26,764 nucleotides of DNA from contig NZ_JOID01000043.1 of NCBI RefSeq assembly GCF_000719865.1, forward strand, positions 1 through 26,764, in the 5' to 3' direction. Position 1 is the stretch's first letter. Each line of letters opens with the position of its first letter. This document shows positions 1,355 to 23,739 of the stretch, piece by piece. Origin of the DNA: Streptomyces albus subsp. albus. GTDB taxonomy: Bacteria; Actinomycetota; Actinomycetes; Streptomycetales; Streptomycetaceae. The position numbers were made by a program, and so were the translations under genes. Below the pieces are notes generated by a model. That model saw only the letters and a list, made by a program, of their open reading frames with translations, was not told where the DNA came from and made no database searches.

Positions 1355-3082
1355 ATGGTCCAGGCCACGCCCGACACCGTCCACGACGCACCGCCACCCG
1401 CCGGTCCGCCGGCCACGGCGCCACCCGGGCGCAGCGTCCGCGTCGTGCTGCTCGCGCTGATGATCGCGATGCTGCTCGCCATGCTCGACAACATGATCAT
1501 CGGGACCGCGATGCCGACCATCGTCGGCGAACTGGGCGGCCTCGAACACCTCTCCTGGGTGGTGACCGCCTACACCCTCACCACCGCGGCCTCCACCCCG
1601 GTCTGGGGCAAACTCGGCGACCTGTACGGCCGCAAGGGCATCTTCATCACCTCGATCGTGGTGTTCCTGCTCGGCTCCGCCCTCTCCGGCATGGCCCAGA
1701 CCATGGGCCAGCTGATCGGCTTCCGCGGCGTCCAGGGCCTGGGCGCGGGCGGTCTGATGGTCGGCGTGATGGCGATCATCGGCGATCTCGTCCCGCCCCG
1801 GGAGCGCGGCCGGTACCAGGGCATGATGGCCGGGGTCATGGCCCTGGCCATGATCGGCGGGCCGCTCGTCGGCGGCACCCTCACCGACACCCTCGGCTGG
1901 CGCTGGAGCTTCTACATCAACCTCCCGCTCGGCGCCGTCGCCCTCGTCATGGTCTCGACGGTGCTGCACCTGCCGAAGAAGCGGACGAAGGCGCGCATCG
2001 ACTACGCGGGCGCGGCGCTGCTCACCGTGGCCATCACCTCGATGGTGCTCCTCACCACCTGGGGCGGCATCGAGTACGCCTGGGACTCCGGCGTCATCCT
2101 CGGGCTCGCCGGCACCGCCGCGGTCACGACGGTGGCGCTGCTGGTGGTGGAGAGCCGGGTCGCGGAGCCGGTGCTGCCGCTCGGCATCTTCCGCAGCCGC
2201 AACTTCTCCCTGATGACCCTCATCGGCTTCCTGACCGGCTTCGTGATGTTCGGCTCGATGACCTTCCTGCCGCTCTACCAGCAGACCGTGCAGGGCGCCT
2301 CGGCCACCAACTCCGGGCTGCTCCTGCTGCCGCTGCTGCTGGCGATGATGGCGGTCTCGCTGATCGCGGGACGGGTCACCACCAGCAGCGGCAAGTACAA
2401 GATCTTCCCGATCCTCGGCGGCGGGCTGATGGTCGCCGGCCTGTTCCTGCTGTCGACGATGGACACCGGCACCTCCCGCTTCGTCTCCGGCTGCTACATG
2501 GCGGTCCTCGGCGCCGGCCTCGGTTTCCTGATGCAGATCACCATGCTCGTCGCCCAGAACAGCGTCGAGATGAAGGACATGGGCGTCGCGTCCTCGACCA
2601 CGACCCTGTTCCGCACGGTCGGCGGCTCCTTCGGTGTCGCCATCATGGGCGCCCTCTTCACCCACCGGGTGCGGGACGGCATGGCGGGCGGGGCCGGGCC
2701 CGGTGCCCCGGCCGTCACGGAGGGGGCCGTCCAGCTCGACGCGGCGAGCCTGGCGAAGCTGCCGGACGTGGTACGGGAGGCGTACCAGTCGGCGGTGGCC
2801 GACGGGACGCACATCGTCTTCCTGGTGGCCGCCTTCGCGGCCGTGGCCGGGTTCCTGGCGGCCTGGTTCGTCGAGGAGGTACCGCTGCGGGGAGCCGGCC
2901 CGGCCGGGCCGGGAGCGGGCCCCGGAGGGCCGGAGGGCGCGCGGGCGGAGGAGACGGCCGGCGGCACGGAGGCGCACGCGGGCGCCGGAGCGGTTGACGG
3001 AACGGGCTCCGGCCGCGGTTCCGGCCGCGGCTCCGGCGGAGGTGTTCCGGCGAGCGGATTCCCGGCGGCCAAGTCCGTCTGA
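1355..3082 (+). CDS. MFS drug:H+ antiporter, DHA2 (EmrB/QacA) family, 14 TM
   Basis: The 575-residue product is a polytopic membrane protein of the DHA2 family, which exports drugs in exchange for protons. After a Pro-rich cytoplasmic lead of about 28 residues comes helix 1 with LDNMIIGTAMPTI (motif D1), then GKLGDLYGRKG (motif A, loop 2-3), GGPLVGGTLTD (motif C, the antiporter signature in helix 5), and further hydrophobic segments consistent with 14 helices. A long Gly/Arg/Ser-rich tail of about 65 residues follows the last helix (FLAAWFVEEV). The ATG at 1355 is preceded by GGGGAG with 8 nt spacing; the frame is open to 1091, but that extension is low-complexity and covers the operator region. 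The promoter at 1122-1151 overlaps a TetR operator, so inducible export of a toxic compound is the likely role. The substrate is unknown. Confidence 0.93.
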   Translation: MVQATPDTVHDAPPPAGPPATAPPGRSVRVVLLALMIAMLLAMLDNMIIGTAMPTIVGELGGLEHLSWVVTAYTLTTAASTPVWGKLGDLYGRKGIFITSIVVFLLGSALSGMAQTMGQLIGFRGVQGLGAGGLMVGVMAIIGDLVPPRERGRYQGMMAGVMALAMIGGPLVGGTLTDTLGWRWSFYINLPLGAVALVMVSTVLHLPKKRTKARIDYAGAALLTVAITSMVLLTTWGGIEYAWDSGVILGLAGTAAVTTVALLVVESRVAEPVLPLGIFRSRNFSLMTLIGFLTGFVMFGSMTFLPLYQQTVQGASATNSGLLLLPLLLAMMAVSLIAGRVTTSSGKYKIFPILGGGLMVAGLFLLSTMDTGTSRFVSGCYMAVLGAGLGFLMQITMLVAQNSVEMKDMGVASSTTTLFRTVGGSFGVAIMGALFTHRVRDGMAGGAGPGAPAVTEGAVQLDAASLAKLPDVVREAYQSAVADGTHIVFLVAAFAAVAGFLAAWFVEEVPLRGAGPAGPGAGPGGPEGARAEETAGGTEAHAGAGAVDGTGSGRGSGRGSGGGVPASGFPAAKSV

Positions 3083-3145
3083 GCCGCCGGGAACGGCGCA
3101 CCCCCGGCCCCTTCGGCCCCGCCGCACCGCGCACGTCGTTACGAG

Positions 3146-3177
3146 CGGAGCCCCGCGCCACCCGGTGCGGGGCTCCG
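3146..3177. terminator. Strong bidirectional hairpin between exporter gene and cseC
   Basis: CGGAGCCCCGC (3146-3156) pairs perfectly with GCGGGGCTCCG (3167-3177). The stem can extend by three pairs (one G-U) to an ACCC tetraloop. It lies between two convergent genes and has no long T-tract, as is common for Streptomyces terminators. Confidence 0.8.
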
Positions 3178-3269
3178 TCCGGCCCGCCGTGCCTCCCCGG
3201 GCCGGGCCGCGCGCCGCAGGCGGGTGTGCCGCGCCGCGTGTGCCGCGGGGGAGCCGCGTCTCCCGGCGC

Positions 3270-4781
3270 TCAGGCCCGGGGGCCGGGCACGATCGTGGTC
3301 ACGACGGGGATGCCGCCGGTGGACGTGGGCGCCGTGCCCGGCAGCCACAGCACGGCGACCGCCCCGCCGTCGGGCGCGTTGCGGAAGGTGAGGGCCGCCC
3401 CCAGCACCCGGGCCTGGCCGGCCGCGATGGTCAGGCCCAGGCCGTGCCCCCGCCCGGCCCGGTCCGCGCTGCCGGTGCGGAACCGGCTCGGCCCTTCGGC
3501 CAGCAGCGCCGGCGGGAAGCCCGGCCCGTGGTCCCGTACCCGCAGCACCCGGCCCTCCACGGTGACCTCGACCGGCCCCCGGCCGTGCTTGGCCGCGTTG
3601 GCCAGCAGATTGCCCAGGACCCGCTCCAGCCGCCGCGGATCGGTCTGCACCCGCGCGTCCCGGACCACCTCCATCCCGGCCTCCGGCGCGAGGACGCGCA
3701 CCCGGCGGGCGACGAACTCGCCGAGCGCCACCTCCTGCAGCTCGGCCCGCTCGGTGGCACCGTCCAGCCGGGCCACCTCCAGCACGTCCTCCACCAGGGT
3801 CCGCAGCGCCTGCGCCCGGTCCCGCACCAGCTCCGAGGGGCGGCCGGGCGGCAGCAGTTCGGCCGCCGTGACCAGCCCGGTCACCGGGGTGCGCAGTTCG
3901 TGCGCGATGTCGGCGGTGACCCGCCGCTCGGCCTCCAGCCGCTGCTGGAGCGCGTCGGCCATGGCGTCCACGGCGCGGGCCAGATCGTCCGTCTCGTCCC
4001 GCACCCGGCCGCCGATCGCGTCCCGTACGCGCACCCCCGTATCGCCCTGCGCCACCCGGCCGGCGGCGCACGCGGCCTGCCGCAGCCGCCGGGAGAGCTG
4101 GCCGCCGACGAGCACGCCCAGCAGGCAGCCGCCGCCGATCACCGAGACGGACCCGATGGACAGCGCCCGGTCCAGATCGCCCAGGACGGCGTAACGGTCC
4201 TCGAAGCGGGTGTGGATGGACAGGACCCGGCCCCCCGCCAGCGGTACCGCCGCCCACACCTCGGGGGCACCCTCGCCGGTGTCCTCCAGATACGTGGCGC
4301 GCTGCCCGCCCCGTACCGCCTCGCGCAGCTCGGGGGGCAGGTCGGGGTCGTCGATGTGCGCGTCGAAGTTGAGCCGGCCCGTGGACTCGTAGATCCGCTG
4401 CGCGAACGTGACCCGTTCGTCCTGGATGTCGCGGCTGCCGTTGAGCAGCGAGACGCGGGCGGCGTTGTGGACGGCCAGGCTGAGCGCGAGGGCGACCAGC
4501 GCGCCCACCGCGGCGATGGCGGCACTGAGCTTCCAGCGCAGCCCCGTGCGGGGGCGGAACCGGCCGGAGGGGACGAGGCGCCGGAGGCGGCGGAGCCGGG
4601 CGCCGCCCGCCCGGTGGGCGGTCGGCGCGGAGTCGGTCCCGTCGGCGGCGGACGGCGGGGAGGCGGACGCCGGGGCGGCGGACGGCTCGGAGGAGGACGC
4701 GGCGGCGGCCGGGCCGGGCGGAGGCGGGGCCGCGGCGGACTGCGGGGACGGCCGCGGCGAGGACGGGTCGCGGGTCGGCAC
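3270..4781 (-). CDS. cseC: Sensor histidine kinase CseC
   Basis: This 503-residue transmembrane kinase is the sensor of the CseB/CseC system, which responds to cell-wall damage and drives sigE. A Pro/Ala/Ser-rich cytoplasmic stretch of about 80 residues leads to TM1 (about 85-104), an extracytoplasmic sensor (about 105-206), TM2 (about 207-226), HAMP (to about 280), the H-box DIAHELRTPV with phospho-acceptor His at about 294, and a HATPase domain with the N-box NLLANAAKHG, DHGPGF and GRGHGLGLTI. The GTG at 4781 lies 14 nt after the cseB stop and has GGGGA about 8 nt upstream; the open frame runs further upstream only as a shadow inside cseB. Identity rests on the family plus the operon order sigE-cseA-cseB-cseC, known from S. 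coelicolor. The low-complexity N-terminal tail is an unusual addition. Confidence 0.93.
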   Translation of the reverse strand: MPTRDPSSPRPSPQSAAAPPPPGPAAAASSSEPSAAPASASPPSAADGTDSAPTAHRAGGARLRRLRRLVPSGRFRPRTGLRWKLSAAIAAVGALVALALSLAVHNAARVSLLNGSRDIQDERVTFAQRIYESTGRLNFDAHIDDPDLPPELREAVRGGQRATYLEDTGEGAPEVWAAVPLAGGRVLSIHTRFEDRYAVLGDLDRALSIGSVSVIGGGCLLGVLVGGQLSRRLRQAACAAGRVAQGDTGVRVRDAIGGRVRDETDDLARAVDAMADALQQRLEAERRVTADIAHELRTPVTGLVTAAELLPPGRPSELVRDRAQALRTLVEDVLEVARLDGATERAELQEVALGEFVARRVRVLAPEAGMEVVRDARVQTDPRRLERVLGNLLANAAKHGRGPVEVTVEGRVLRVRDHGPGFPPALLAEGPSRFRTGSADRAGRGHGLGLTIAAGQARVLGAALTFRNAPDGGAVAVLWLPGTAPTSTGGIPVVTTIVPGPRA

Positions 4782-4795
4782 AGGCGGTTCCCCGG

Positions 4796-5509
4796 TCAGC
4801 CGCGGAGCTTGTAGCCGAAGCCGCGCACCGTGTCGATGCGGTCCTGGCCGATCTTGGTGCGCAGCCGCTGCACATGGACGTCCACGACCCGGGTGTCGCC
4901 GCCCCAGTCGTAGTCCCACACCCGCTCCAGCAGCCGGTCGCGGGAGAGCACCGTGCCGGGCGCGCTGGAGAACTCCAGCAGCAGCCGCATCTCGGTCGGC
5001 GTCAGCGCGACCGGCTCGCCGTCCTTGCGGACCTCCATGCCGCCCGTGTCGATCTCCAGGTCGCCGAAGCGCAGCGGCTCGCCCTCCGCCTCCCCGGCCG
5101 CACCGGCCCGCGCGGAGCCGCCGTCCGGACCGCCGGCCGCGTGCCCGAAGCGGCGCAGCACCGCCCGGATCCGGGCCACCAGGACCGCGCTGTCGAAGGG
5201 CTTGGTCACGTAGTCGTCCGCGCCCGCCTCCAGACCCAGCACCACGTCGATCGAGTCGGCCCGCGCCGACAGCATGATCACCGGCACGGTCGACTCGTCC
5301 CGGATGCGGCGGCACAGGCTCACCCCGTCCAGGCCCGGGAGCATCACGTCGAGCAGCGCGATGTCCGGCCGGCCGCCCCGGAAGAGCTCCAGACCCGTCA
5401 GCCCGTCCGGCGCAGCCGTCACCACGAGCCCGGCGCGCTCCAGGGCGAGCTGGGTCGCCTCGCGGATGACGTCGTCGTCCTCGACGAAGAGCACATGCGT
5501 TCCGGCCAT
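4796..5509 (-). CDS. cseB: Response regulator CseB (OmpR/PhoB family)
   Basis: This 237-residue two-domain regulator has a receiver with the acidic pocket EDDD (10-13), phospho-acceptor Asp54 in LLDVMLPG, Ser81 in MLSARAD and Lys103 in YVTKPF. After a Gly/Ala-rich linker (about 125-145) comes a winged-helix DNA-binding domain ending VVDVHVQRLRTKI and VRGFGYKLRG. In the characterised S. coelicolor system CseC phosphorylates CseB, which activates the sigE promoter. The ATG at 5509 is 10 nt downstream of the cseA stop, and the sequence across the junction supplies a GAGGAG ribosome binding site. It is followed 14 nt later by cseC. All key receiver residues are present. The likely DNA target here is the inverted-repeat region upstream of sigE at 6934-6999. 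Confidence 0.96.
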   Translation of the reverse strand: MAGTHVLFVEDDDVIREATQLALERAGLVVTAAPDGLTGLELFRGGRPDIALLDVMLPGLDGVSLCRRIRDESTVPVIMLSARADSIDVVLGLEAGADDYVTKPFDSAVLVARIRAVLRRFGHAAGGPDGGSARAGAAGEAEGEPLRFGDLEIDTGGMEVRKDGEPVALTPTEMRLLLEFSSAPGTVLSRDRLLERVWDYDWGGDTRVVDVHVQRLRTKIGQDRIDTVRGFGYKLRG

Positions 5510-9410: not shown

Positions 9411-10535
9411 TCAGACGTAGCGTTCGAGGATCGAGGACTCCGCCAGCCGGGACAGGCCCTCGCGCACCGAGCGCGCCCGGGCCTCGCCCACCCCGTCGAC
9501 CGTCTGCAGGTCGTCGACGCTCGCGGCGAGCAGCTTCTGCAGCCCGCCGAAGTGCTCCACCAGCCGCTCGATGATGGTGTTCGGCAGCCGCGGCACCTTC
9601 GCCAGCAGCCGGTAACCACGCGGCGACACCGCCGAGTCGAGCGTCTCCGGCGAACCGCTGTAGCCCAGGGCGCGCGCCACCACCGGCATTTCCAGCAGCT
9701 CGGTGTGCGACAGCTTGTCGAGTTCGGTGAGCGCCTCGGCGACCGTGCGGGTCCGCTTGGCGGTCGGCTCGGGCACGTAGTCCCGCACCACCAGCTCGCG
9801 TTCCGGCTCGACGCCCGCGATCAACTCGTCCAGCTGGAGCGAGAGAAGCCGGCCGTCGGTGCCGAGCTCGACGACGTACTCGGCGATCTCGGTGGCGATG
9901 CGGCGGACCATCTCCAGCCGCTGCGCCACGGCGGAGACGTCCCGGATCGTCACCAAGTCCTCGATCTCCAGGGCGGAGAGGGTGCCCGCCACCTCGTCGA
10001 GACGGAGCTTGTACCGCTCCAGCGTGGCCAGGGCCTGGTTGGCGCGGGACAGGATCGCCGCCGAGTCCTCCAGCACCCGGCGCTGCCCGCCGACGTACAG
10101 CGCGATCAGCCGCATCGACTGGCTGACCGAGACCACGGGGAAACCGGCCTGGATCGAGACGCGCTGCGCCGTGCGGTGCCGGGTGCCGGTCTCCTCGGTG
10201 GGGATCGACGCGTCGGGAACGAGCTGCACACCCGCCCGCACGATCTTGGTGATGTCCTTGTCGAGGATGAGCGCGCCGTCGAGCTTGCACAGCTCGCGCA
10301 GGCGCGTCGCGGAGAACTCCACATCGAGGACGAATCCGCCGGAGCACATCGCCTCGACGTGCTTGTCCATACCCAGCACGATCAGTCCGCCGGTGTTGCC
10401 GCGGAGAACGCGCTCGAGTCCGTCGCGCAGGGCGGTACCGGGCGCGACTGCGCTCAGCGAGGCGCGCATCAGGCCCTCGGTACCGGAGCTCCCGCCGGAT
10501 TTTCCGGGAGTCGCTGCCCGGTCGTTGGCTGCCAC
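9411..10535 (-). CDS. disA: Diadenylate cyclase DisA (c-di-AMP synthase, DNA integrity scanner)
   Basis: DisA makes cyclic di-AMP from two ATP and binds branched DNA such as Holliday junctions, which lowers its activity. The N-terminal DAC domain has the catalytic DGA at residues 86-88 and RHRTA at 119-123. A helical linker follows, and the C-terminal third contains helix-hairpin-helix DNA-binding sequence ([27 protein letters not shown]). The length, 374 residues, is normal for the family. The GTG at 10535 has a clear GGAGGA 5 nt upstream; the open frame to 10853 lies in repetitive spacer and is not needed. It is downstream of radA on the same strand with a 345-nt gap, so it probably has its own promoter (TAGACT at 10598-10603). 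In Streptomyces c-di-AMP affects osmotic balance and development; the pairing with RadA fits reported inhibition of DisA by RadA. Confidence 0.97.
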
Positions 10536-10597
10536 TGCACTCCTCCGGTCGCAGAATTCGGGGCCCGGGTGCGTACGTACGGGCGAGACCAGGGCAA

Positions 10598-10603
10598 AGT
10601 CTA
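10598..10603 (-). promoter_or_regulatory. Candidate -10 box for disA
   Basis: TAGACT on the minus strand lies about 63 nt before the disA GTG. There is no clear -35 hexamer at 17-18 bp. The palindromic CGTACGTACG sits between it and the start, at about 10572-10581. Confidence 0.4.
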
Positions 10604-10782
10604 CCGGCGGCCGGACGACTTGTGTGGTGCGTCTCGGCTCAGGGGTGCGCGGTGCGCCCTCCGCGAGCCCCGGAGCGCGCGCCGGGGAGCACGGTGGGGA
10701 CCACCGGAAGCCTCTCCGGGGGTACCGCCCGGAGAGCCTGCCCGGCTCGGCCGGAGAGCGGGCGGAGAAGGGCCGGAGAGGA

Positions 10783-10838
10783 GCCGGACAGCGGCCGGAC
10801 AGCGGCCGCGGACGTCCGGTGAGGGCGTCCGGTGAGGG
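10783..10838 (+). repeat. Short tandem repeats in the radA-disA spacer
   Basis: GCCGGACAGCG occurs twice in tandem (10783-10793, 10794-10804), and CGTCCGGTGAGGG occurs twice in tandem (10813-10825, 10826-10838). Looser CCGGAGAG motifs precede them from about 10725. These are two different units side by side, which looks like local slippage. Apart from these repeats and the disA promoter, the 345-nt gap (10536-10880) shows no gene. Confidence 0.8.
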
Positions 10839-10880
10839 ACCCGGAGCGGTCACCGGACGGCCGTCCGCCGGGCTGTGAAC

Positions 10881-12386
10881 TCAGCCGGACGCGCCTCCTG
10901 AGAGCGGCGAAGCCTCCGCGGCCCCGCCCTCCGGCGGCCCGGCCCGCCCGGCCCGCCCCGTGCGCCCGGACCGGTCCGGTTCCCCGGACCCCTCCGGCCG
11001 CTCCCTGCGCGGCCGGCGCGGCAGCACCCGCAGAGCCTCGCCCATGTCCGCGACCTCGATGACCCGCATCCCCTCCGGCACCCGCCCCGGGTCGGTCGGC
11101 ACCAGCGCGTGGGTGAAGCCCAGCCGGGCCGCCTCCGACAGCCTGCGCTGTACCCCCGTGACCCGCCGCACCTCGCCCGCGAGGCCGACCTCGCCGATCG
11201 CGACGAGGTTCTTCGGCAGCGGGGTGTCGCTCGCCGCGCTCGCCAGCGCCAGGGCGATCGCGAGATCCGCCGCCGGCTCCGACAGCTTCACCCCGCCGAC
11301 CGTGGCGCTGTAGATGTCCCGCTTCCCGAGCTGGGAGATCTTGCCGCGCTGCTCCAGCACCGCCAGCATCATCGACACCCGCGAGGTCTCCAGACCCGAG
11401 GTCGTACGGCGCGGTGACGGGATCTGCGAATCGACCGTGAGCGCCTGCACCTCGGCGACCAGCGGCCGGCGCCCCTCCAGCGTCACGGTCAGGCAGGTGC
11501 CCGGAACGGGCTCGGCGCGGCGGGTGAGGAAGAGACCCGACGGGTCGGCGAGGCCGGTGATCCCCTCGTCGTGCAGTTCGAAGCAGCCGACCTCGTCCGT
11601 CGTCCCGTAGCGGTTCTTGACACCGCGGACCAGCCGCAGCCGGGCGTGCCGGTCGCCCTCGAAGTGCAGCACCACGTCGACCAGATGCTCCAGCAGCCGG
11701 GGTCCCGCGATGGCGCCGTCCTTGGTGACGTGCCCCACCAGCAGCGTGGACATCCCGCGCTCCTTGGAGGCCCGGATCAGCGCCCCCGCCACCTCACGGA
11801 CCTGCGCCATGCCGCCGGGCGCGCCGTCGATCTCCGGGGAGGCCACCGTCTGCACGGAGTCCAGGACCAGCAACGACGGCTTCACCGAGTCGAGATGGCC
11901 GAGCACGGCCGACAGATCCGTCTCCGCGGCCAGATACAGATGGTCCGAGATCGCCCCGATCCGGTCGGCGCGGAGCCGCACCTGGCTCGCGGACTCCTCG
12001 CCGGTGACGTAGAGCGTGCGCTCCTGCTCGGTGGCCGCCTTGGCGGCGACGTCCAGCAGCAGCGTCGACTTGCCCACGCCCGGCTCGCCCGCCAGCAGCA
12101 CGACGGCGCCCGGCACCAGACCGCCGCCCAGCACCCGGTCCAGCTCGGGCACGCCCGTGGCCCGCGCGGTCGCCCGGCGGCCGTCGACCTGGCCGATCGG
12201 CAGCGCCGCGGTGGACACCCGGCCGGGCGCGGTCGTCCGCACGGCGGGCGTGCCGCCGGCCTCCTCGACCGTGCCCCACGTCTGGCACTCGGGGCAGCGG
12301 CCGAGCCACTTGGCGGTGGTCCAGCCGCACTCGGTGCAGCGGTAGGAGGGACGGTCCTTGGCGGACGTACGGGTACGGGAAGCCAT
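10881..12386 (-). CDS. radA: DNA repair protein RadA (Sms), with extended C-terminus
   Basis: RadA is a RecA-like ATPase and helicase that helps branch migration in recombination. The 501-residue protein begins with a C4 zinc finger (Cys17, 20, 31, 34), then the RecA-type core with Walker A GEPGVGKST at about 100-108, Walker B LLVLDSVQT, and the RadA-specific KNRYG at 257-261. The Lon-protease-like domain follows (AIALALASAASDTPLPKNLVAIGEVGLAGEVR). After about residue 455 comes a Pro/Gly/Arg-rich tail of roughly 45 residues that is not part of the family core. The ATG at 12386 starts directly before the zinc finger. It has no evident ribosome binding site, but TAGCGT lies 6 nt upstream, so a leaderless mRNA is possible. 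disA lies downstream on the same strand, and the next upstream gene is divergent. Confidence 0.96.
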   Translation of the reverse strand: MASRTRTSAKDRPSYRCTECGWTTAKWLGRCPECQTWGTVEEAGGTPAVRTTAPGRVSTAALPIGQVDGRRATARATGVPELDRVLGGGLVPGAVVLLAGEPGVGKSTLLLDVAAKAATEQERTLYVTGEESASQVRLRADRIGAISDHLYLAAETDLSAVLGHLDSVKPSLLVLDSVQTVASPEIDGAPGGMAQVREVAGALIRASKERGMSTLLVGHVTKDGAIAGPRLLEHLVDVVLHFEGDRHARLRLVRGVKNRYGTTDEVGCFELHDEGITGLADPSGLFLTRRAEPVPGTCLTVTLEGRRPLVAEVQALTVDSQIPSPRRTTSGLETSRVSMMLAVLEQRGKISQLGKRDIYSATVGGVKLSEPAADLAIALALASAASDTPLPKNLVAIGEVGLAGEVRRVTGVQRRLSEAARLGFTHALVPTDPGRVPEGMRVIEVADMGEALRVLPRRPRRERPEGSGEPDRSGRTGRAGRAGPPEGGAAEASPLSGGASG

Positions 12387-12398: not shown

Positions 12399-12770
12399 AC
12401 GCCGGGCGGTGACAACGCGCGGGGCGGCCCGGGCCCGCGGGCGTCCGCGGAGCACCCGGCACACGGAACGGGGCGGGACGGACCGGGGCGGAACCAGCCT
12501 GCTCCGACCCGGCGCACGGAACGGGTTGTGCGGACCGGGTACGGGGATCGGGTGCGCAGACCGTGGTGGGCAGTTGAGACGCACGGACCCGGCGCACGGA
12601 CCCTGTGCACGATCCGGGCGCCCGGATCGGACGCCGGACCGGGTGCGGGCGGCGGGGCCGTACCGGACGCTCTGCCGTCCCGTGGCACCACCGGCCGGGC
12701 GACCGGGAGCGCCCATCACCCGTAGGGATGAAAACCGCGGGAGCGGCGCGAGCGGGCCGCCCCGTCCCCC
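12399..12770. other. Spacer between radA and the BACON-domain gene
   Basis: This stretch of about 370 nt has no convincing gene. It is built from degenerate CGGACCGGG and CACGGAACGGG motifs. The 15-nt sequence GACCCGGCGCACGGA occurs exactly twice, at 12506-12520 and 12586-12600, 80 nt apart. Confidence 0.55.
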
Positions 12771-12776
12771 TACCGT
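12771..12776 (+). promoter_or_regulatory. -10 box TACCGT, predicted leaderless start
   Basis: TACCGT ends 6 nt before the GTG at 12783, which is immediately followed by an ATG. No Shine-Dalgarno sequence is visible, so the transcript may start at the GTG. Confidence 0.5.
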
Positions 12777-12782
12777 CGCCGG

Positions 12783-14435
12783 GTGATGAACAGGCCCGAG
12801 CACCCGACCCACGCCACCGGCGCGCGCTACGAGCCGTACCTCGACGGGTTGTTCACCTACTGCCTCGCCGCGATGTGCGAACACGACGCGGCGACCGCCG
12901 TCCTCGGCGAGGTCCTCGCCCACGCGGAGCGGCGCCACCGGCGCTCGCCGGCCGAGCCGGAGCGGCAGCGTTCCCGGCTCTACGCCCTCGCCCGCTGGAC
13001 CTGTCTGCGGCATCTCGCCGCCCGCCCCCGGCCTCCCGCACCGCACCGCTCCGCGCGTCCGCCCGCCCCGCACGGCCCGCCCGCCCAGGGCCCCTCGGGC
13101 GGCCCGTCCGGTTCCGGCCTCTCCGAGGAGACCGCCGCCCGGCGCCGCCGGGAACTCTCCACGCTCGTCTGGCCGGAGGCCGCGGGCACCACTCGCGAGC
13201 AGCGCGAGGCCCTGGAACTCGCCGTGCGGCACCGGCTGACACCCCCGGAAGTCGCCGCCGTGCTCGGCACGGACGAGGAGAAGGCGCGCGGCCTGCTGAC
13301 CGCCGGCGCCCGCGAGGTCGAGCGCACGCGGGCCGCGCTGGCCGTCGCGGAGGGCGGCGGCTGTCCGGCCGTCAACCGGCTGACCGGGGACGCCCGGGCC
13401 CTGATGGGCAGCGACCTCCGCCGCGAACTGCTGCGGCACATCAAGGACTGCGATTCCTGCCGCCGCACCGTTCGGCGTTCCCCGGCCGACGGTTCGGGGC
13501 CGGGCGGCAGCGGCACCGCCGCCGGCGCGCTGCCCCTGGTCCCCGCGCCGCGCGCCGAGGCCGCCGCCGCGATGCGCGCCGCGCTCCGCGTCCGCCCTCG
13601 GGACGTCCCCTCCGGCCCGCCGCGCTACGACCGGCGGGGCTTCCCGATGGGCCCGGGGCGCCTGGCCGCGCGCCGCCGGACCGTGCGCCGCCGCGTCGCG
13701 ACGGCGGCCGTGGTGACGGCCGCCGTCACCGCACCGGTCGTCGCGCTGTGGGCGGCGTACCGGGGCGCGCCCCCGGGCCAGGACCGGTACGCCGGCCCCG
13801 TCTCCGCCGCCGAGGACGACCGCCCGGGGGCACATCCGTACGATCCGGCGGACGGCTCGGACGGCGCCCCGCTCGGCCGGGACGGCCACAGGCCGCCCGG
13901 CGGTCCGGCGGAACGGGGCGGCGACAGGGGCGGCGAGGACGGCGCGCCCCGTGAGGACGGCGGCACCGAGCGGGACGGCAACGGCGGCGACGAACGGAGC
14001 GGGGCCCGGCTGACGGTCGTCAGCCGGAGCGGCGGAGACGGCACCCTCATCACCCTGACGGCCTCGGGCAGCGAACCGGTCGGCTGGACCGCGCGCACCG
14101 ACGCGTCCTGGCTGCGCCTCAGCGCCACCGCGGGCACCGTCCGCCCCGGACGCTCGGTGAGCCTCACCGTGACGGTGGACCGGGCGCGGCAGCCGGGCGG
14201 CGCGTGGACGGGCCGGGTGACGATCGGCCCGTCCGGCACGGTGGTCACCGTGCGGGGCCGCGGTGAGCCCTCCCGGCCGGGCGGACCGGAGGAGCCGCCG
14301 CCGGCCGCCCCGCCGGACCCGGACCCGGAGCCCGCCCCGTCACCCCCGGCGCAGGAGCCGACGGGCGAGCCACCGGAGGACGGGGACGCGGGGGGCGCCG
14401 GGGGCGCGGAGGATGGCGGGGACACCGCCGGGTGA
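12783..14435 (+). CDS. Fused ECF-sigma-like / zinc anti-sigma-like / TM / BACON-domain protein
   Basis: This 550-residue protein would usually be called BACON domain-containing. Residues 16-80 ([34 protein letters not shown]) resemble a diverged sigma region 2. Residues 138-185 resemble sigma region 4 with a helix-turn-helix ([22 protein letters not shown]). Next comes Cys194, then H219-x3-C223-x2-C226, the zinc-binding pattern of ZAS anti-sigma factors. A single membrane helix spans about 305-323. Outside the cell there would be an acidic Gly-rich linker, a beta-rich BACON-like domain (about 407-493, with [13 protein letters not shown]) and a Pro/Glu-rich tail. BACON domains are thought to bind glycan or protein. 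The layout suggests a membrane-tethered transcription factor. ECF groups with C-terminal zinc-finger and TM extensions are known in actinobacteria. Start: GTG 12783 or ATG 12786. The sigma-like part may be degenerate. Confidence 0.8.
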
Positions 14436-21443: not shown

Positions 21444-21498
21444 GGCGACCGGTGACAGGCGACCGGTGACGGACGACCGGTCCAGGCGACCGGCGAGG
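21444..21498 (+). repeat. 14-nt tandem repeat, four degenerate units
   Basis: Units start at 21444, 21458, 21472 and 21486. The clearest are GGCGACCGGTGACA and GGCGACCGGTGACG. The array lies in the predicted leader of the ECF41 mRNA and ends just before its ribosome binding site. With the other two arrays and the promoter it accounts for much of the 473-nt gap 21043-21515; no gene is seen there. Confidence 0.78.
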
Positions 21499-21515
21499 TG
21501 AAGGGGAGGGGCCCA

Positions 21516-22400
21516 GTGGCACGGCTGAGCGAGTTCGAGGAGCACCGCGGACGCCTCTGGGGCGTCGCCTACCGCATCACCGGCTCCGTCGCGGACGCCG
21601 ACGACGCCGTACAGGAGGCATGGCTGCGCTGGCAGGCCGTGCCCGACGGCGAGGCGGCCGAGCCCCGCGCGTATCTCACCACCGTCGTCAGCCGCATCTG
21701 CTACGACCAGCTCGGCTCCGCCCGTTCGCGCCGCGAGAGGTACGTCGGCTGCTGGCTGCCCGAGCCCGTCCTGGGCGGCGACGGAGGCGGTGCCCCGCTC
21801 CCCGAGGACCGGGTCACCCTCGACGAATCCGTCGGCATGGCGCTGCTCGCGGTGCTGGAACGGCTGACGCCGGCCGAGCGGACCGCCTTCGTCCTGCATG
21901 ACGTGTTCGCCGTGCCCTTCACCGAGATCGCCGAGGCCGTGGGCCGCACCCCCGTCTCCGTACGGCAACTGGCCTCACGGGCCCGCAGGCGGGTCCGCGC
22001 CGAGAGCCCGCGCCGGTCCGTCGACCGCGACGAGCACCGGCGGGCCGTGGAGGCCTTCCTCGCCGCCGCCACGGGCCGGGACCTCGACGCGCTCATGAAG
22101 GTCCTCGACCCCGGTGCCGTCTGGCGGGCGGACGGCGGCGGCAAGGTGTCGGCGGCCCGCCACCCGGTGTCCGGCCGCGACAAGGTGTGCCGCCTCGTCG
22201 AGGGGCTGGTGAACCGGTGGGAGCCCGGCACGCTGGTGCTGGAGGTACGGGAGGTCAACGGCGCGCCCGGGCTGGTGCTCAGCCTTCCGGAGAGCGGGCA
22301 GTTCGCGGTCGCCGCCTTCACCGTGTACCGGGGGCTCATCACCGAGATCGACGTCGTCGCCAACCCCGACAAGCTGCGCCACCTCGGGCTGGGCGGCTGA
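21516..22400 (+). CDS. ECF41-type sigma factor with fused SnoaL-like regulatory domain (SigJ-like)
   Basis: This 294-residue protein has sigma region 2 (LSEFEEHRGRLWGVAYRITGSVADADDAVQEAWLRW, PRAYLTTVVSRICYDQLGSAR) and region 4 at about 107-160 (LTPAERTAFVLHDVFAVPFTEIAEAVGRTPVSVRQLASRARRRV). A C-terminal NTF2/SnoaL-like domain of about 130 residues carries the ECF41 signatures DGGGK (206-210) and NPDKL (283-287). In ECF41 proteins this domain contacts the core sigma part and tunes activity, replacing an anti-sigma factor. The GTG at 21516 has AAGGGGAGG about 6 nt upstream; a GTG at 21498 is less likely. The upstream promoter at 21368-21394 suggests autoregulation, and the neighbouring FAD oxidoreductase is one of the partner types (oxidoreductase, epimerase or carboxymuconolactone decarboxylase) usually encoded beside ECF41 genes. 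The triggering signal is unknown. Confidence 0.94.
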   Translation: MARLSEFEEHRGRLWGVAYRITGSVADADDAVQEAWLRWQAVPDGEAAEPRAYLTTVVSRICYDQLGSARSRRERYVGCWLPEPVLGGDGGGAPLPEDRVTLDESVGMALLAVLERLTPAERTAFVLHDVFAVPFTEIAEAVGRTPVSVRQLASRARRRVRAESPRRSVDRDEHRRAVEAFLAAATGRDLDALMKVLDPGAVWRADGGGKVSAARHPVSGRDKVCRLVEGLVNRWEPGTLVLEVREVNGAPGLVLSLPESGQFAVAAFTVYRGLITEIDVVANPDKLRHLGLGG

Positions 22401-22428: not shown

Positions 22429-22548
22429 CGCCGGCCGCGCATGCGGCTGCCCGAACGCGGTCCCGCGCCGCCGGTCCGCCGCGCCGTGCCCCGGCCCCAC
22501 CGAACCGGGCCCCACCGGACCCGGACCCGCACACCCGAGGGAGACACC

Positions 22549-23739
22549 ATGCCCCAGCAGCACCCGGCCCGGCCGGGCGGCCACGAGACCACGACCGGCC
22601 CGGCACCGGAGACCGGCCGCCCGCACGACCCGGCGGAACACCGCGTCGTCGTCATCGGCGCCGGCTACTCCGGCCTGCTGTCCGCGCTGTGTCTGGCGCC
22701 GCACCACAGGGTCACCCTGATCGACCCGGCCGATCACTTCACCGAGCGGGTACGCCTCCACGAACTCGCCGCCACCGGACGCGAGGTGACTCACCCGCTG
22801 AGCCGCTTCCTCGGCCGGCGCCCCGGCCCCGGCGCCGAACACGTGGCCTCCCGCGCCACCGCCATCGACACCGCGAACCGCCTGGTCCGCACGGACGACG
22901 GCCGCGCCCTCCCGTACGACCGGCTCGTCTACGCCCTCGGCAGCCGCACCGACACCAGCGGCGGCGCTCTTGGCACCGGCGACCGCGCGTACACCGCCGA
23001 GACCGCCGCCGAACTGCGCAAGAGGCTCGCCGACGGCTGCGGCGCGCTCGCCGTCGTCGGCGGCGGCCTCACCGGCATCGAGACGGCCGCCGAACTCGCC
23101 GAGAGCCACCCCGACTGGGAGATCCGGCTGCTCACCTCCGGCGAACCGGGCCCCGGTCTCTCCCCCAGAGGCCGCGCCCACGTCCGCGCCTTCCTCCGCG
23201 ACCACGGGGTCCGTGTCGAGGAGGGCCGCCGGGTGGCCACGGCCGACGAGGCCGACGCCGACGCCGTCTTCTGGGCGACCGCCATGAGAGCCCGTACGGA
23301 GCTCGCCGAAAGGGCCGGGATCGCCCTCGACCCCGCCGGCCGCATCCGCGTGGACCCGACCCTGCGCTCGCTCTCCCACCCGGAGATCTACGCCGTCGGG
23401 GACGCCGCGGCCGCGTCCACCCCCGCCTCCGGGCCGCTCCGCATGGCCTGCGCCACCGCCGTCCCCACGGGCATCCACGCGGCGCATGTCATCACCGCCG
23501 AACTGCGCGGCCGGGAGCGGCGCCCGTTGCGCTTCGGCTACGTGATCCAGTGCGTCAGCCTCGGATGCGGCGACGGCCTGATCCAGTCCGTGCGCCGGGA
23601 CGACAGCCCGCGCGAACGCGCTCTCACCGGCCGGCCGGCGGCCCGCGTCAAGGAACAGGTGGTGCGCTCGACGGTGCACGCCCTGAGCCTGGCGGCCCGT
23701 CATCCGGCGGCACTGCGGTTCCTGCCCGGCACCGGCTGA
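22549..23739 (+). CDS. FAD/NAD(P)-dependent oxidoreductase, NDH-2-like; ECF41 partner
   Basis: The 396-residue enzyme has two Rossmann nucleotide-binding motifs: VVVIGAGYSG (33-42) for FAD and LAVVGGGLTGIETAAELAE (about 167-185) for NAD(P)H. The second FAD motif is EIYAVGDAAA (about 279-288). The arrangement is that of the pyridine nucleotide-disulfide oxidoreductase superfamily, nearest to type II NADH dehydrogenase-like proteins; no redox-active CxxxxC pair is seen. The acceptor is unknown. The ATG at 22549 has GAGGGA upstream; the frame is open to 22441 but the extra part is low-complexity. It follows the ECF41 sigma gene by 148 nt with no obvious promoter of its own, so co-transcription is likely. 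The pairing suggests that the sigma factor controls this enzyme in a redox or detoxification response; that step is inference. Confidence 0.91.
   Translation: MPQQHPARPGGHETTTGPAPETGRPHDPAEHRVVVIGAGYSGLLSALCLAPHHRVTLIDPADHFTERVRLHELAATGREVTHPLSRFLGRRPGPGAEHVASRATAIDTANRLVRTDDGRALPYDRLVYALGSRTDTSGGALGTGDRAYTAETAAELRKRLADGCGALAVVGGGLTGIETAAELAESHPDWEIRLLTSGEPGPGLSPRGRAHVRAFLRDHGVRVEEGRRVATADEADADAVFWATAMRARTELAERAGIALDPAGRIRVDPTLRSLSHPEIYAVGDAAAASTPASGPLRMACATAVPTGIHAAHVITAELRGRERRPLRFGYVIQCVSLGCGDGLIQSVRRDDSPRERALTGRPAARVKEQVVRSTVHALSLAARHPAALRFLPGTG

Follow-up and report, generated by a model that had tools for sequence, protein, structure and literature searches.

The gene at positions 12783 to 14435 of a 26,764-nucleotide stretch of Streptomyces albus subsp. 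albus (contig NZ_JOID01000043.1; the whole stretch is hereafter referred to as the window) encodes a single chain composed of σ2-like and σ4-like domains, a zinc-binding anti-sigma (ZAS) motif, one transmembrane (TM) helix and a BACON domain. With a probability of roughly 0.55, we regard the product as a σ–ZAS protein tethered to the membrane, with classical promoter recognition lost and protein contacts as its mode of action. A wider proposal, put forward tentatively, is that of a "retired" sigma factor: Streptomyces would as a rule carry an anchored σ–ZAS–BACON protein that has given up promoter recognition and serves as a σ-shaped signaling module of the envelope, under a dedicated regulator with its sole genomic operator before the gene.

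The domain order had been proposed from the sequence alone (hereafter the sequence-only reading), and was confirmed by structure prediction, a homology chain, the zinc ligands and a match to BACON_2 (PF19190; 35.9 bits vs. a cut-off of 25), a family matched by all 29 Streptomyces members of our profile set. The same reading placed output, inhibitor and sensor in one polypeptide. The architecture agrees with that view, but whether the σ half still works as the output is doubtful for Streptomyces, which has lost contact positions (described below) that many relatives retain. The BACON domain itself stood, and the sensor role assigned to it is at most putative; BACON has been proposed elsewhere to be a spacer (PMC11216935).

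Sigma ancestry of the N-terminal part

The ECF (extracytoplasmic function) sigma fold of the N-terminal part, anticipated by the sequence-only reading, was confirmed by structure prediction together with the homology chain; σ2 and σ4 domains were predicted and σ3 was absent, which is the ECF layout. For the window protein alone, no sigma family scored above cut-off in Pfam or NCBIfam; against the curated Pfam sigma profiles, there was no σ2 match, and σ4 reached 12.8 bits vs. a cut-off of 25.7. The ancestry was traced instead from a Streptomyces profile through relatives in other Actinomycetes to solved ECF sigma factors such as SigW. Searched over 246 genomes of the class, the Streptomyces profile (29 members) matched 76, of which 22 belong to the same genus; many of the remaining matches were weak or confined to BACON, and the strong distant ones covered residues about 20–295. 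TIGR02937 was matched by all 11 relatives and, weakly (E ≤ 0.01), by 10 of the 29 members, the window protein not among them. Searched against the PDB, a profile of the eleven relatives matched SigW (2e-19), AlgU (5e-19), Escherichia coli RpoE (2e-13) and SigL (4e-12).

Ten relatives were scanned with Pfam. Both Sigma70_r2 and Sigma70_r4_2 exceeded their cut-offs in four (loci L133, L134, L136, and L150), and a sigma region and BACON_2 both did so in two (L109 and L150). Locus L136 carried a tandem pair of σ–ZAS–TM genes (2267-3619 and 3878-5269). With our own lenient profile, a BACON-like domain was found in 12 of 37 fetched open reading frames (ORFs) and in 69 of 120 database relatives; precomputed Pfam assignments listed PF19190 in 12 of the same 120.

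Foldseek returned no match at E ≤ 0.001 for the N-terminal model, its top rows nonetheless being ECF sigma factors, and nine matches for the full model, two of which were ECF sigma factors. The predicted σ2–σ4 arrangement resembled those of anti-sigma-bound sigmas such as RpoE–NepR (3.6 Å over 143 residues) and SigW–RsiW. It fitted SigK with its anti-sigma factor less well (8.4 Å), and was unlike RNA polymerase-bound sigmas (21–28 Å over the two domains).

Loss of contact residues in Streptomyces

A joint alignment was built from 44 Streptomyces sequences (those sharing <75% mutual identity, out of 111), 16 sister-family ORFs, 51 relatives (30 obtained by taking every fourth of the 120 database proteins, and 21 ORFs of the fetched loci), 27 ECF sigma factors of the same genome and one ECF52 protein. 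The 27 controls came from 50 own-genome loci; the other 23, without a full-length match to our sigma profiles, were dropped. Five positions, which we take to be contacts to the polymerase core, the −10 and the −35 elements, were scored: 39 (D/E), 42 (Q), 72 (N), and 174 and 176 (R/K).

None of the five was retained in 37 of the 44 Streptomyces sequences and one in the other seven, and residue 72 was W in all 44. Among the controls, at least two were retained in 26 of 27 (5/5 in 5, 4 in 12, 3 in 6, 2 in 3, and 0 in 1). The relatives retained 5/5 in 23, 4 in 12, 3 in 5, 2 in 4, 1 in 3, and 0 in 4, and the sister-family ORFs of both tandem types 3/5 in 1, 2 in 4, 1 in 7, and 0 in 4; the same-genome ECF52 protein (L008) scored 3/5. 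Net charge of the recognition helix was +3.1 in controls (n = 21), +1.43 in relatives, −0.59 in Streptomyces and −1.06 in sister-family ORFs.

Relatives at the same locus are in intermediate states between canonical and degenerate sigma. Read at the five positions, the BACON-type copies around radA–disA carried D-H-N-K-R in L133 (4/5), D-Y-N-R-W in L109 (3) and D-Y-R-D-W in L110–L112 (1/5), and retained none in L113–L116. In a quick tree, calculated without bootstrap and with an outgroup not cleanly on one side of a branch, the nine Streptomyces rows grouped with three BACON copies of the sister family in one clade (SH-like approximate likelihood ratio test, 99) with a long Streptomyces stem. 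Separately, a divergent sigma-like protein of the own genome (L231; contig C40, about 22566) scored 0/5, and a zf-HC2 match (C40:22913-23005) follows closely downstream of it.

Several points weigh against a loss of promoter recognition. The five positions were chosen after the alignment had been viewed, in the light of known sigma structures. R169, at the position of a conserved lysine in canonical recognition helices, was kept in 40 of 44 Streptomyces sequences, and an acidic residue at 43 in 39 of 44, so that some DNA or core contact may survive. Of the columns conserved in controls, Streptomyces kept 4/14 polar and 16/29 non-polar ones and the relatives 6/14 and 22/29; as aligned, the loss over these columns is not purely polar. 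Further, one of 27 controls scored 0/5 and 11 of 51 relatives scored ≤2. The own-genome ECF52 protein also lacks Q42 and N72, although knockout of SCO4117, a relative of it, gives a clear phenotype (PMC5826349).

Conserved zinc site and σ–ZAS core

In an entropy analysis of 95 non-redundant Streptomyces sequences (each <90% identical to the others), near invariance was found at residues 20–28, 65–76 apart from 73, most of 125–150, and 178–190, and positions 163–167, 170, and 174 were variable. C194 was present in all 95. ZAS zinc motifs have the form C/H-x24/25-H-x3-C-x2-C; C194-x24-H219-x3-C223-x2-C226 matches this form and was invariant in the 29 Streptomyces members. The H-x3-C-x2-C part, on which the sequence-only reading had staked the anti-sigma assignment, was kept in 94 of 95 Streptomyces loci, L064 being the sole exception in the stretch searched. 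Because of this conservation pattern and the likeness of the model to anti-sigma-bound sigmas, the promoter face is probably under weaker selection than an internal σ–ZAS complex.

A single-copy element upstream of the gene

Two conserved boxes lie before the gene (Table 1). The box 1 consensus TCACCCGTANGGRTTAAA, drawn from the same sequences on which it was scored, fitted 100 of 108 distinct upstream regions with ≤1 mismatch, and each of 108 shuffles showed at least four mismatches. From its start to CCTACSGTCG, whose end lies just ahead of the start codon, the distance was 54 nt in 101 regions and 53 nt in seven, the window having 53. Searched at ≤1 mismatch in 41 genomes, TCACCCGTANGGNTTAAA had exactly one match in 35 and none in six, and the reversed control had none. 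Thirty-four of the 35 single matches were compared with gene places (no place was listed for the 35th genome, G017), and all lay upstream of the gene, within about 430 nt of the start of the profile match. In the own genome, three further places fitted box 1 only at two mismatches. The simplest reading would be a dimeric regulator with a single operator per genome, and the once-per-genome element makes the control of the gene directly testable. The position of box 2 suggests a leaderless transcript.

In the sister family, loci L110–L112 carried TCAC[CT]C-N4-GGGTGA (differing from TCACCC-N4-GGGTGA by 0 to 1 mismatch), again at a distance of 53–54 nt from CCTAGCGTCG, and L113–L116 had the palindrome with 1 to 3 mismatches and no box 2 at that spacing. 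Upstream of the genes in L109 and L133, neither box was seen.

A small ORF was rejected as an explanation of the box, as the varying base fell on codon position 2 and third positions were nearly fixed. A PhoP box was also set aside; one GTTCACC-like unit was present and no repeat was seen. No Rfam family reached its gathering score in the window. Among the titles listed for the letters of box 1 in the literature searched, which mostly excluded subscription journals, none concerned the element.

Table 1. Positions of the gene, its encoded domains, the upstream boxes and the conserved neighbors in the window.
Feature	Position	Strand	Remarks
σ–ZAS–TM–BACON gene	12783..14435	+	GTG start, 550 aa; alternative ATG at 12786 gives 549 aa
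σ2-like domain, residues 12–80	12816..13022	+	structure prediction
σ4-like domain with helix-turn-helix, residues 115–191	13125..13355	+	recognition helix about 163–177; alignment and structure prediction
ZAS zinc motif C194-x24-H219-x3-C223-x2-C226	13362..13460	+	
TM helix, residues about 305–327	13695..13763	+	predicted; lies in helix 291–327
BACON_2 domain, residues about 406–496	13998..14270	+	
Proline-rich C-terminal tail, residues 497–550	14271..14432	+	
Box 1, TCACCCGTAGGGATGAAA	12716..12733	+	18-bp imperfect palindrome; once-per-genome element
Box 2, CCTACCGTCG	12769..12778	+	−10-like; starts 53 nt past box 1 start; ends 4 nt before GTG
radA	10881..12386	-	divergent conserved neighbor
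disA (c-di-AMP synthase)	9411..10853	-	conserved neighbor

Distribution and genomic neighborhood

A search of 150 genomes of the genus found the gene in 146, the four misses being assemblies of 630 to 1010 contigs. In an order-wide sample, 146 of 147 genomes matched, among them all 15 from two further families. The product is a near genus-wide Streptomyces envelope protein, its gene fixed beside the c-di-AMP synthase gene disA: radA and disA were present at 87 of 88 loci tested (80 Streptomyces and 8 sister-family), and the gene adjoined radA divergently in the locus arrangements displayed. Some orthologue matches (e.g., G069, G096, G055, G012, and G018) contained one in-frame stop, which may be real, a sequencing error or an overrun of the alignment into untranslated sequence.

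In locus L109, the σ/BACON ORF lay between radA and ppx (placed by profile, not by tblastn). In the seven sister-family loci L110–L116, a tandem σ–ZAS paralogue was located between radA and the BACON gene (e.g., 7400-9145 in L111). The tandem copy in L113–L116 lacked the first cysteine of C-x2-C. Locus L133, whose protein is named Sporichthyaceae, contained disA, radA, upf, the σ–ZAS gene and a TIM-barrel gene within 7 kb; its arrangement differed in that upf sits between radA and the σ–ZAS gene, which is co-directional with radA. Positional orthology is therefore firm across the taxonomic order and likely for L133.

In S. coelicolor, RadA is SCO3351 (PMC3897704) and the candidate exopolyphosphatase is SCO3348 (PMC4433243). 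Counted by gene order from these and from sigE (SCO3356), the orthologue should be SCO3350, which was not named in the literature searched. SCO3353, a published glycoprotein (PMC6593405), had first been taken for the orthologue and was ruled out by gene order.

Elsewhere in the window, an ECF sigma factor gene (21498-22400), with a SnoaL_2 extension just below the Pfam cut-off, adjoins a pyridine-nucleotide oxidoreductase gene (22441-23739).

Proposed function and alternatives

The protein probably descends from a membrane-tethered ECF sigma factor of canonical type that carried its own zinc-type anti-sigma domain, a single TM helix and an external BACON domain in the same chain and has long been located near radA–disA. 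Streptomyces copies retain the fold, zinc site and membrane anchor, with the conserved core, −10 and −35 contact residues replaced, so that promoter selection as a sigma factor is most likely gone. Charge suggests that the N-terminus is inside. The σ-like module would be held closed at the membrane by the ZAS domain until an envelope cue on the BACON/proline-rich side opens or frees it, by conformation or proteolysis. The module, once open or free, may then bind a protein partner: RNA polymerase or, in the manner of PhyR, another anti-sigma factor. If the σ part is indeed a mimic, the protein would be a membrane-tethered Actinobacterial counterpart of PhyR, and the copies around this one locus would offer a natural canonical-to-degenerate series for how a sigma factor loses its job.

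A possible, though doubtful, alternative is a working ECF sigma factor with altered promoter specificity, held by the fused ZAS domain and freed by regulated proteolysis, as proposed for the ECF52 protein SCO4117. Its architecture would be that of ECF48, ECF52 and ECF53, the near-invariant W72, C74, R76, R149, and H150 could form a new specificity set, and the kept R169 and the four relatives with both Pfam sigma regions are consistent with it. In addition, box 2 carries CGTC or GGTC, which we take to be an ECF-like −10, so autoregulation is possible. However, few or none of the 44 sequences retain D39, Q42, N72, or the R174/R176 pair, the recognition helix differs from species to species on its DNA face, and no regulon is visible through box 1 because it occurs only once per genome. 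It is improbable that the σ fold is a mere scaffold in a structural or adaptor protein of the envelope without signaling output: the proposed spacer role of BACON (PMC11216935) and the proline-rich tail agree with this, but the strong invariance of the σ2, σ4, and ZAS cores and the dedicated, fixed-spacing upstream element suggest a regulated intracellular use. A chance likeness to sigma factors, or an unrelated helical helix-turn-helix fold, is very improbable, since the sub-threshold Pfam/NCBIfam scores of the window protein and the empty Foldseek result for the N-terminal model are set against the homology chain, the predicted structure and the occurrence, in this gene neighborhood, of L133, a relative of canonical appearance.

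Comparison with known systems

The reading as a membrane-tethered σ–ZAS protein without classical promoter recognition was compared with described groups. ECF groups with zinc and TM extensions, to which the sequence-only reading had alluded, are known: σ–ZAS–TM fusions have been described as ECF48, ECF52, and ECF53, with release by proteolysis expected, and ECF48 and ECF53 are Actinobacterial, with a C-terminally fused zinc finger followed by one or two TM helices (PMC8999054). The combination with BACON, which the sequence-only reading had raised as possibly new, is not unique: relatives with Pfam sigma regions and BACON_2 exist.

The ECF52 protein SCO4117, which affects development and antibiotic production, is alike in joining σ, zinc finger, TM helix, proline-rich segment and an external carbohydrate-type domain in one chain (PMC5826349). 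The ECF52 candidate of the same genome (L008, zf-HC2 over cut-off) may be distinct: in the quick tree it fell on the side of the ordinary ECF controls, outside the BACON family (support 98, but on a very long branch), and its recognition helix has a charge of +3 with both arginines kept. Its external domain is presumably NPCBM-like, as judged by eye, and not BACON. ECF48 and ECF53 share the layout, and a Mycolicibacterium protein of that layout was among the relatives (P0135); compared by description only, they differ in that the group descriptions in PMC8999054 do not mention BACON.

PhyR of Alphaproteobacteria is alike in the fold and weak profile similarity of its σ-like domain only. PhyR itself is a response regulator and its NepR partner is a free protein, whereas the Streptomyces protein has fused ZAS, TM and BACON parts. 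For BACON_2, 929 Actinomycetota proteins have been counted, and carbohydrate binding by BACON is not established in the text of that source (PMC11216935). Among titles and abstract openings in the literature searched, there was no description of a BACON–sigma fusion with a degenerate σ part, or of the cis element. The σ–ZAS–TM fusions are a kind already known, of which the BACON family, with its degenerate σ part and cis element, is a variant.
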